From the NCBI GenBank assembly GCA_009692205.1, contig SHZR01000008.1, forward strand, positions 1-64,000: DNA of 64,000 bases, read 5' to 3'. Shown here piece after piece: positions 3,315 to 50,121 of this stretch (positions are counted from its first letter, which is position 1; each line of letters begins with the position of its first letter). The notes beneath the pieces were generated by a model. It saw only the letters and a list, made by a program, of their open reading frames with translations. It made no database searches and had not been told where the DNA came from. The position numbers were made by a program, and so were the translations under genes. This stretch comes from Gemmatimonadota bacterium. GTDB lineage: Bacteria; Gemmatimonadota; Gemmatimonadetes; Longimicrobiales; Gaopeijiaceae.

Positions 3315-3357
3315 TTGAAGGGGATCAGCCACCGGATATATACTGATATATATCACC
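3315..3357 (+). promoter_or_regulatory. Promoter and inverted-repeat operator of the first VapBC pair
   Basis: TTGAAG at 3315-3320 and TATACT at 3339-3344 are separated by 18 bases and resemble sigma-70 boxes. A perfect inverted repeat, GATATATA-CTGA-TATATATC (3335-3354), overlaps the -10 box and ends 3 bases before the antitoxin ATG at 3358. There is no purine-rich ribosome site, so the transcript is predicted to be leaderless or nearly so. The AT-rich repeat fits autoregulation by the VapB/VapC complex. Confidence 0.6.
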
Positions 3358-3633
3358 ATGACCCACGACGCCCCGCCGGCGCGACGCGCCAAGCTCTTCT
3401 GGAACGGACGGTCGCAAGCCGTGCGCCTTCCGCGGGAGTTCCGGTTCGACGGTGACGAGGTGGAGATTCGCCGCGAAGGCGATCTGGTCGTACTCGCTCC
3501 CGTCACGCACGAACGGTTCGAGGACTCGTTCTGGACAGGCATCGACGCGCTCGCGGCCGGCCTCGACCTGGCCGGAATCGAGCCCCTCGGAGCTCGATTG
3601 CTCGACGTCGACCTGGACGCCCCCGAGGAGTGA
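3358..3633 (+). CDS. vapB: VapB-type antitoxin (AbrB/SpoVT fold)
   Basis: 91 residues. The N-terminal half matches the VapB AbrB-like DNA-binding domain: [20 protein letters not shown] is followed by [16 protein letters not shown]. The C-terminal half is acidic, as expected for the arm that wraps and neutralises the toxin. The gene overlaps the downstream PIN-domain toxin by GTGA, the usual coupled arrangement. The encoded protein probably represses its own promoter by binding the inverted repeat directly upstream. Genomic toxin-antitoxin pairs of this kind are common and their physiological trigger is unknown here. Confidence 0.9.
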
Positions 3634-4025
3634 CCTACCTACTCGATACGAACGCGGTCATCCATGCGCTGCGCGGGAAGCCCGCGTCGGTGCGGGGCCG
3701 GCTGGACGACGAGGGCCCGGGCCGAGTCTGCGTGTCGTCGGTGACGGTGGCCGAGCTCTGGTACGGGGCGGAGAAGTCTGATAACCCCGAACGGCGCCAC
3801 CGACTCTTCGAGGCGTTCCTGGCCCCCCTCGAGGTCATGCCCTTCGATGCGGCCGCAGGCAAGCTCCACGGCGTCCTACGGCACCAGCTCCGACACCAGC
3901 CCATAGGGGAGCGCGACCTGCTCATCGCCGCGATCGCACGCACCCTCGGGCTGACGCTCGTGACCGCGAACCGCAAGGAGTTCGACCGGGTCCCCGCCCT
4001 AGCCGTCGAGGACTGGAGCGCCTAG
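3630..4025 (+). CDS. vapC: VapC-type PIN-domain ribonuclease toxin
   Basis: 131 residues, normal for VapC. The acidic active-site residues of PIN nucleases are present: Asp in [13 protein letters not shown] near the N-terminus, Glu in [12 protein letters not shown] near residue 42, Asp in [11 protein letters not shown] near residue 96, and a C-terminal acidic residue in NRKEFDRVP. VapC toxins cleave tRNA or rRNA using Mg2+ when freed from VapB. Translation starts at GTG inside the antitoxin stop (GTGA overlap). Its 3' end overlaps the convergent cdd1-like gene by 27 bases. Confidence 0.92.
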
Positions 4026-35330: not shown

Positions 35331-36152
35331 TATCTGTACGGAATCTCCCCACACACGGAGGAGCGCTGCATCAAGGCGATCGAGACGAAGCCCTCCGTGG
35401 CCGCGCACGGCTCGACGCACCACGCCAACTCGCAGTTCCTCGTGCAGAACGACAAGGGCGAGTGGGAGACCATCGCCCGTCTCTCCGAGTTCGCGTTCGG
35501 TAAGGTGGGCGAGGTCGTTCCTACCGACGCCTGCCGCGTGGCGCCAGCGAACTCACGCGTGCGCTGGGACATTCACTACTACCCGGACGGCAAGGCGGTT
35601 CAAGACGATCAGGTCGAGGTCGCCATTTGGTACCACGACGAGACGTTCAACCGCGAGGCCTCATATCCGCAGGACCTGCGCTCTTACGCCCTCAAGGGCG
35701 GCGACTTCGACATCCCGCCCCATGGCAAGCTGATGACGCAGGGCTTCCAATCGTTCGATCACCCGGTCCGGATCGACAGCTGGCAGCCGCACCTGCATCT
35801 GCGGGGCGTGGCCATGTCGATCGAGGCGTTCTATCCGGAGACGGGCAAGCGCGAGATGATCAGCATGGCCTCCACCTGGAACGCCGGCTGGAACCTCAGC
35901 CACATCTACGAGGAAGGCCATCAGCCGATGCTGCCTGCCGGCGCGGTCCTCATCCTGACCGGCTGGTACGACAACACCGAGAACAACCCGCGCAATCCGG
36001 ATGCGGATCAGTGGGTGGGCATGGGACAGCGCACGACCGATGAGATGTCCCACGCCTGGATCGCGGTCACACACTTGGACGAAGAGGGCTACGAGCGGCT
36101 GGTTGCGGAGCGCGAGAGTCCGCCCGTGGTCGACAACGGAGGTGCCCGATGA
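35331..36152 (+). pseudogene. 5'-truncated copper type II monooxygenase-like gene
   Basis: Recognisable coding begins abruptly around 35331 ([20 protein letters not shown]) with no start codon before a stop at 35289. The nearest possible start is GTG at 35397. The rest resembles the PHM-like copper domains found in exported redoxin or cytochrome fusions: AAHGSTHHANSQF, a HxH ligand pair in SWQPHLHLRGVAM, and the C-terminal NTENNPRNPDADQWVGMGQR ... DEMSHAWIAV. The signal peptide and upstream domains are missing. The stop overlaps the next gene by ATGA, so the operon partner survives. The protein might still be made from GTG 35397 but would not be exported. Confidence 0.7.
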
Positions 36153-49417: not shown

Positions 49418-49447
49418 TTGACATATATATGTCATTGATATATGTCT
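49418..49447 (+). promoter_or_regulatory. Promoter and operator of the second VapBC pair
   Basis: A perfect TTGACA (49418-49423) overlaps a perfect 16-bp palindrome TGACATATATATGTCA (49419-49434). A half-site TGATATATGTC (49436-49446) follows. With 17-base spacing the -10 box would be TATGTC (49441-49446), putting the transcript start at about 49453, directly at the antitoxin ATG (49454). This suggests a leaderless, autoregulated mRNA like the first pair. Confidence 0.6.
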
Positions 49448-49453
49448 TGATGC

Positions 49454-49696
49454 ATGCGAACCACCGTACGACTTCCGGATGATCTCATGAGAGCCGTCAA
49501 ACGGAGGGCCGTCGACACCGGGCGCACGCTCACCGACGTGATCGCGGACGCTCTGCGCGCGGAGCTGAGCCGAGGCGCCGAGGTGCACCTGTTCTCGTCG
49601 GTCGAGCTCCCCACGTTCGGAGCCGGCGGCGTTCTTCCCGGCGTCGACCTCGACGACAGCGCCGCATTGCTCGAGCTCATGGAACACCGGGGGTGA
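49454..49696 (+). CDS. vapB: Antitoxin, ribbon-helix-helix family
   Basis: 80 residues. A ribbon-helix-helix N-terminus (MRTTVRLPDDLMRAVKRRAV, then TGRTLTDVIADALRAELSRG) is followed by an acidic, Gly-rich toxin-binding tail. It binds DNA as a dimer, probably at the TATATA palindrome upstream. It ends in a GTGA overlap with the PIN toxin. Unlike the antitoxin at 3358 it is RHH and not AbrB-fold, so the two pairs are independent. Confidence 0.9.
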   Translation: MRTTVRLPDDLMRAVKRRAVDTGRTLTDVIADALRAELSRGAEVHLFSSVELPTFGAGGVLPGVDLDDSAALLELMEHRG

Positions 49697-50121
49697 TCCT
49701 CCTCGACGTCAACGTGCTGGTGTACGCGCACCGCAAGGACGCGGCGCGACACGACGAGTACCGCGCTTGGTTGGAGAACGCGCTGACCGGCGCACAGCCG
49801 TACGGGCTCTCGGACCTCGTGTTGAGCGGTTTCCTCAGGGTGGTCACCCATCCACGCGTGTTCCGCGACCCCACGCCTGTGGCCGAGGCCTTGGCCTTCG
49901 TGGACGCGGTCCGAGATCGCTCGAATCGCGTGAGGGTCGAGCCGGGCCCGCGCCACTGGGACATCTTCCGGGAACTCTGCCGGCGCGCCGAGGCACGCGG
50001 CAACCTCGTTCCCGACGCCTACCTGGCCGCGATGGCCATCGAGTCGGGCGCCGAGTGGATCACCACCGACGGCGACTTCAGGCGCTTCGCAGGACTGCGG
50101 ACAAGACACCCGTTGGAATGA
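49693..50121 (+). CDS. vapC: VapC-type PIN-domain ribonuclease toxin
   Basis: 142 residues. PIN acidic residues: Asp in MILLDVNVLVYAHRKD, an acidic residue in GLSDLVLSGFLRVVTHPRVF, Asp in LVPDAYLAAMAIESG and Asp in WITTDGDFRRF. The LVLSGFLRVVTHPRVF segment is shared with the VapC branch paired with RHH antitoxins. It would cleave RNA when free. Translation starts with GTG inside the antitoxin stop. Convergent with hom. Confidence 0.92.
   Translation: MILLDVNVLVYAHRKDAARHDEYRAWLENALTGAQPYGLSDLVLSGFLRVVTHPRVFRDPTPVAEALAFVDAVRDRSNRVRVEPGPRHWDIFRELCRRAEARGNLVPDAYLAAMAIESGAEWITTDGDFRRFAGLRTRHPLE

Follow-up and report, generated by a model that had tools for sequence, protein, structure and literature searches.

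A Probable Leaderless Promoter and Predicted Family-Specific Operator in a TIGR00028-Type VapBC Pair, Compared with an AbrB-Type Pair in the Same Stretch of DNA

Two VapBC toxin-antitoxin (TA) pairs lie in the window, the 64,000-nucleotide stretch of DNA analysed here. Both of their operators contain TATATA, and their antitoxins have different folds. The question raised by nucleotides 49418-49453 is whether the two pairs share one type of operator, and possibly their regulation, or whether each antitoxin reads its own. The comparisons below argue for the latter. With a probability of about 0.88, we read 49418-49453 as the regulatory region of a TIGR00028-type VapBC (pair 2): a leaderless promoter under an autoregulatory operator that is private to its own antitoxin family.

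Both genes of pair 2 are intact, and the small gene for a DNA-binding antitoxin is directly 5' of the toxin gene, as expected of a VapBC operon.

49454-49696, + strand: vapB antitoxin, 80 aa, with an N-terminal ribbon-helix-helix (RHH; MRTTVRL strand) and a C-terminal toxin-binding motif
49693-50121, + strand: vapC toxin, 142 aa, a predicted PIN-domain ribonuclease whose start overlaps the vapB stop

The antitoxin (VapB2) matches RHH_1, PF01402 (3.9e-5, 23.9 bits, cut-off 20.5), and its profile matches are to the VapB26 N-terminal and VapB43 C-terminal chains. Residues R2, T3, T4, and R6 of its strand are invariant in 18 homologues. The toxin matches PIN, PF01850 (1.2e-17, 65.1 bits, cut-off 23.6), and exceeds the family cut-off of TIGR00028, Mtu_PIN_fam (3.8e-47, 160.1 bits, cut-off 73.6). 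Acidic residues D5, D41, D108, and D126 can be read off its sequence.

The promoter of pair 2 reads TTGACATATATATGTCATTGATATATGTCTTGATGC, directly followed by the vapB ATG at 49454. It contains the following elements.

49418-49423, + strand: -35 box TTGACA, 36 nucleotides 5' of the start codon, overlapping operator half-site 1
49419-49434, no strand assigned: perfect 16-bp palindrome TGACATATATATGTCA, made of half-sites 1 (forward) and 2 (reverse), with conserved arms and a variable centre
49436-49446, - strand: operator half-site 3, TGATATATGTC, a reverse TATGTC arm overlapping the presumed -10 hexamer
49441-49446: presumed -10 hexamer TATGTC, 17 nucleotides 3' of the -35 box
49447-49453, + strand: degenerate half-site 4, TTGATGC, immediately 5' of the vapB start codon

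The palindrome and additional half-site over a perfect TTGACA, as described in the first-pass annotation, are present at 49418-49446. The palindrome is unique in the whole 2.7-Mb genome at up to two mismatches. A sigma-70 consensus scan of this promoter returned no full match because its -10 is weak (TATGTC is a poor hexamer), and promoter geometry across homologues was used in place of that scan.

Homologues of VapB2 were found by protein search in 91 of the 394 genomes of the class, and the 30 best were used for the promoter footprint. In 28 of the 30, TTGACA is located 35-38 nucleotides 5' of the ATG with no Shine-Dalgarno sequence (shuffle mean 0.03 for the box). One further homologue has CTGACA at the equivalent place. 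A -35 box lies just this far from the transcription start, and a leaderless start for pair 2 is therefore well supported by the comparison.

The conserved parts of the operator are the arms TGACAT and ATGTCA. The left arm owes part of its conservation to promoter constraint, since TTGACA is also the promoter consensus, but the distal arm ATGTCA is kept though the promoter does not require it. The centre may be TATATA, TTTAAA, TTTAAG, AAATA, or ATTGAC. Across the homologues, the arms recur near -35, -26, -13, and -6 in varied combinations and orientations, and these positions suffice to span the -35 and -10 boxes as well as the start codon. Three homologues (L074, L082, and L084) have TTGACAT 7 nucleotides 5' of the ATG, the equivalent of half-site 4. 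Because the centre varies while the arms persist, the recognised element would be the arm, and TATATA was rejected in that role. The operator at the pair's own promoter is conserved in sequence along with the antitoxin, and autoregulation of pair 2 is well supported at that level.

From the genes, the palindrome, its conservation, the fixed distance to the ATG, and the family specificity, all read from sequence, we infer the start site, half-site occupancy, binding, and repression as follows. RNA polymerase would use TTGACA and the weak -10 TATGTC, and the transcript would begin at or beside the A of the ATG. The RHH antitoxin would bind as dimers, probably within VapBC complexes, at the TGACAT/ATGTCA half-sites at about -35, -26, and -13 and the degenerate one at about -7. 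Dimers so bound would mask the two promoter boxes along with the start, and transcription would therefore stay blocked until the antitoxin runs out. This operator would be private to the RHH VapB family.

The operator was also sought without reference to the protein. A DNA scan for TTGACATATATATGTCA followed by 17-22 nucleotides and an ATG was run over 84,980 genomes and gave 11 matches. Seven of these are 5' of an RHH VapB that has an R-T-T-x-R strand and a PIN VapC after it; Actinomycetota and candidate division WWE3 are among the sources. One match is 5' of a different RHH antitoxin, and three are 5' of no convincing gene. None of the 11 is 5' of an AbrB antitoxin.

At locus L167 (JAJZED010000021.1), an exact copy of the palindrome stands, with the spacing of a leaderless start, 5' of an RHH antitoxin whose strand, MVKKMIYL, is an exception to the R-T-T-x-R rule. 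The gene after this antitoxin resembles a MazF-type toxin, as judged from sequence alone.

Pair 1 is the second VapBC of the window and is composed of the following features.

3335-3354, no strand assigned: operator GATATATACTGATATATATC, over the -10 box TATACT (3339-3344)
3358-3633, + strand: vapB antitoxin (VapB1), 91 aa, SpoVT/AbrB fold (PF04014, 6.1e-10)
3630-4025, + strand: vapC toxin, PIN, of a tRNA(fMet)-endonuclease-like subfamily (VapCLeptosp, 128.9 bits, just below the cut-off of 140)

The different folds assigned to the two antitoxins, AbrB-like and RHH, are confirmed by these profile matches. The best promoter of pair 1 is TTGAAG (3315-3320), 18 nucleotides, and TATACT, with a predicted start about 7 nucleotides 5' of the ATG. 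Orthologues of VapB1 retain GRTATATACTGRTATATAYC over the -10 box TATACT. Several of them interpose a Shine-Dalgarno leader between operator and start, so the AbrB operator is tied to the -10 box and not to the start codon. Leaderless starts had been predicted for both pairs; the prediction is well supported for pair 2 and fails for pair 1. At up to one mismatch, the AbrB consensus occurs in 4 of the 394 class genomes, always 5' of a VapB1 orthologue.

PIN-domain hits number 37 across the 2.7-Mb genome, roughly one in every 73 kb, and their antitoxins represent at least three folds. A set of 39 antitoxin promoters was gathered locus by locus, with start codons picked by eye, a few of which may be wrong. 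Most of the promoters other than those of the window have a different inverted repeat just 5' of the start codon, and the mean inverted-repeat score of the set is 5.99 (3.84 in shuffles). TTGACA, with up to one mismatch, is 34-36 nucleotides 5' of the start in 14 of the 39, in antitoxins of any fold (1.2 in shuffles). On this pattern, the common design is a leaderless promoter under a palindrome whose sequence is specific to the antitoxin. Operator similarity is slightly but significantly greater within a fold than across folds, with 1 of 2000 permutations as high.

Two other RHH antitoxins of this genome, L017/L050 (G000:C58:17435-17542, - strand) and L043 (G000:C51:7567-7680, + strand), have T at strand position 6 (strands MRTTLTL and MTRTTITL, respectively). 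Their operators share CATCATGATGC just 5' of the start codon, which makes them, by sequence, a better candidate for cross-regulation than the window pairs. A Phd/YefM antitoxin (L010, in G000:C17) 5' of a PIN gene at 35565-35930, - strand, has the promoter TTGACACATATATGACTGGTCATATAGACTGGTCAT directly before its ATG. It is a third fold with an ATATAT-containing leaderless promoter.

The first-pass annotation had assigned the two pairs the same TATATA-type operator and offered cross-regulation or convergent design as its cause. Under cross-regulation, each antitoxin would bind both operators and the window pairs would be co-regulated. Both operators do contain TATATA and TGAYATAT, and their single half-sites differ mainly at one base (TGACATAT and TGATATAT). 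Their likeness is reached by a fraction of 0.004 of composition-matched shuffles, a figure that describes one pair picked for looking alike, against letter shuffles that do not keep TA repeats. Among 741 promoter pairs it takes rank 12, and a likeness at least as high is seen in 3 of 311 cross-fold pairs. An RHH half-site scoring 10.6 is present in operator 1 (19.9 in operator 2; true members 13-20). The AbrB matrix, however, scores operator 1 at 36.6 bits and operator 2 at 11.1 (true members 28-37), and the RHH half-site test on operator 1 is the weaker of these two tests. Consensus and promoter box also differ: the RHH operator is a pair of TGACAT/ATGTCA arms about a variable centre, and the AbrB operator is its own conserved sequence over the -10 box. 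The RHH promoter is nearer to the Phd promoter of L010 than to that of pair 1. Nor do orthologues of pair 1 and pair 2 tend to co-occur. The five genomes whose VapB1 orthologues are closest (G250, G341, G311, G220, and G138) all lack a VapB2 with R6; only G250 among them has any VapB2 match, a K2/V6 relative. The scan of 84,980 genomes placed no AbrB gene behind the RHH operator. Direct cross-regulation of TA systems is documented elsewhere and involves highly similar motifs (PMC10305079). For the window pairs it is very unlikely, and the likeness of their operators appears superficial: in other bacteria the recognition sequence stays particular to each antitoxin family, and the two are AT-rich because both are built on promoter boxes. 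Weak cross-binding is possible, as the operators exceed shuffles in likeness and their half-sites differ mainly at one base.

Convergent design, in which selection led unrelated folds to TATATA for its flexible TA steps, useful as an operator core or for melting, is somewhat less improbable but still unlikely. It draws on the palindromes found just 5' of the start codon in TA operons of varied folds and on ATATAT, which occurs in 5 of the 39 promoters. TATATA itself is in only two, solely those of the window, and in RHH homologues the centre becomes TTTAAA, TTTAAG, or ATTGAC with the arms retained. What converges is the promoter geometry and not a TATATA core. A shared TATATA class would have one consensus in both antitoxin families and TATATA at other TA promoters of the genome; neither was found, although further TATATA palindromes were sought among the 39. 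The annotation had also held that an absence of cross-binding, together with different consensus operators elsewhere in the genome, would speak against it; of these, the second was found, the other antitoxins carrying other palindromes. The least probable reading, a very remote one, is that of a strong promoter with accidental symmetry. TTGACA with an AT-rich spacer is ordinary for a promoter, but a perfect 16-bp palindrome with a third arm is not, there being 0 occurrences of TGACATATATATGTCA expected in the window at up to three mismatches, and the distal arm is conserved among homologues. The reading of 49418-49453 as a leaderless promoter under a family-specific operator is preferred to all three.

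Within the RHH family, the type of arm tracks residue 6 of the VapB strand. Among the 70 class homologues examined, TGACATA arms go with R6 in 30 of 31 non-redundant homologues, and CCATA/TATGG arms with N6 in 21 of 22. On a tree of 74 such VapB proteins, the arm labels switch only about 3-6 times, so the association reflects few, non-independent events, and residue 6 is not claimed as a fully independent code. R-T-T-x-R is present in all seven VapBs (7/7) from the operator-first search, two of which are on a very long separate branch. The best independent support is the WWE3-type pair: its branch is long and separate, yet it shares both the arms and R-T-T-x-R. We tentatively propose, at a little under even odds, a recognition code in which an R-T-T-x-R strand reads TGACATA arms and a K-T-T-x-N strand reads CCATA/TATGG. 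If the code is true, a VapB operator would be predictable from two residues, and insulation among the dozens of TA pairs in a genome would follow from it. The pairs of strand residue and operator arm are directly testable by a simple binding assay.

The K-T-T-x-N homologues (L131-L166) form a second operator class of the RHH family, with CCATA/TATGG arms that often end in CCAT directly before the ATG. Some members have their arms well 5' of a leader. Elsewhere among the homologues, L083 (G298:C92) and L177 (CALQGY020000092.1) have the same VapB; the public record is titled Candidatus Kuenenia stuttgartiensis, while the genome is assigned to the window's own class. This discordance suggests that either the bin or the record carries a wrong label.

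In type II TA systems, operators placed on promoter boxes are standard. Leaderless TA mRNAs are known from Mycobacterium tuberculosis, where they account for 32 of 37 pairs with a primary transcription start site (PMC3898074). Pair 2 is a new, well-delimited example of what is already known in both respects; a literature search for TATATA operators in VapBC turned up only Phd-Doc work. Its analysis yields a clear leaderless geometry and an operator specific to the family, in a VapBC type that is widespread. It also settles a plausible claim of shared regulation by comparative evidence, as two AT-rich operators can look alike when both sit on promoter boxes. With its 37 PIN hits and mostly distinct operators, this genome is well suited to studying how numerous TA repressors remain insulated from one another.

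Several known systems resemble pair 2 in part. FitAB of Neisseria likewise joins an RHH antitoxin to a PIN toxin and binds an inverted repeat at its promoter (general knowledge and review PMC4803016), but the pair 2 VapB scores only 14.3 bits against FitA-like PF22513 (cut-off 27). The SpoVT/AbrB-type VapBC systems (pair 1, Shigella, Leptospira) share the PIN toxin and an autoregulatory palindrome near the start codon; they differ in antitoxin fold, in an operator over the -10 box, and in the Shine-Dalgarno leader of several orthologues. MazE6 of M. tuberculosis, which binds CCGGTTATACTATCTGTA, is also an RHH protein on a promoter-box operator, and its strand residues give specificity: it recognises the operator at its own -10 box, whereas its binding to that of the paralogous mazEF9 is very weak (PMC9477884). 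It differs from pair 2 in having a MazF toxin and an operator that covers the -10 box, not the -35 box, and is not clearly palindromic. The M. tuberculosis-type VapBC belongs to another organism, and the pair 2 operator TGACATATATATGTCA is defined by comparison only. Both have an RHH antitoxin with a C-terminal toxin-binding motif and a PIN toxin over the TIGR00028 cut-off, and VapBC26 and VapBC43 (TIGR00028 VapC with RHH VapB) are like pair 2 in gene order and overlapping start.
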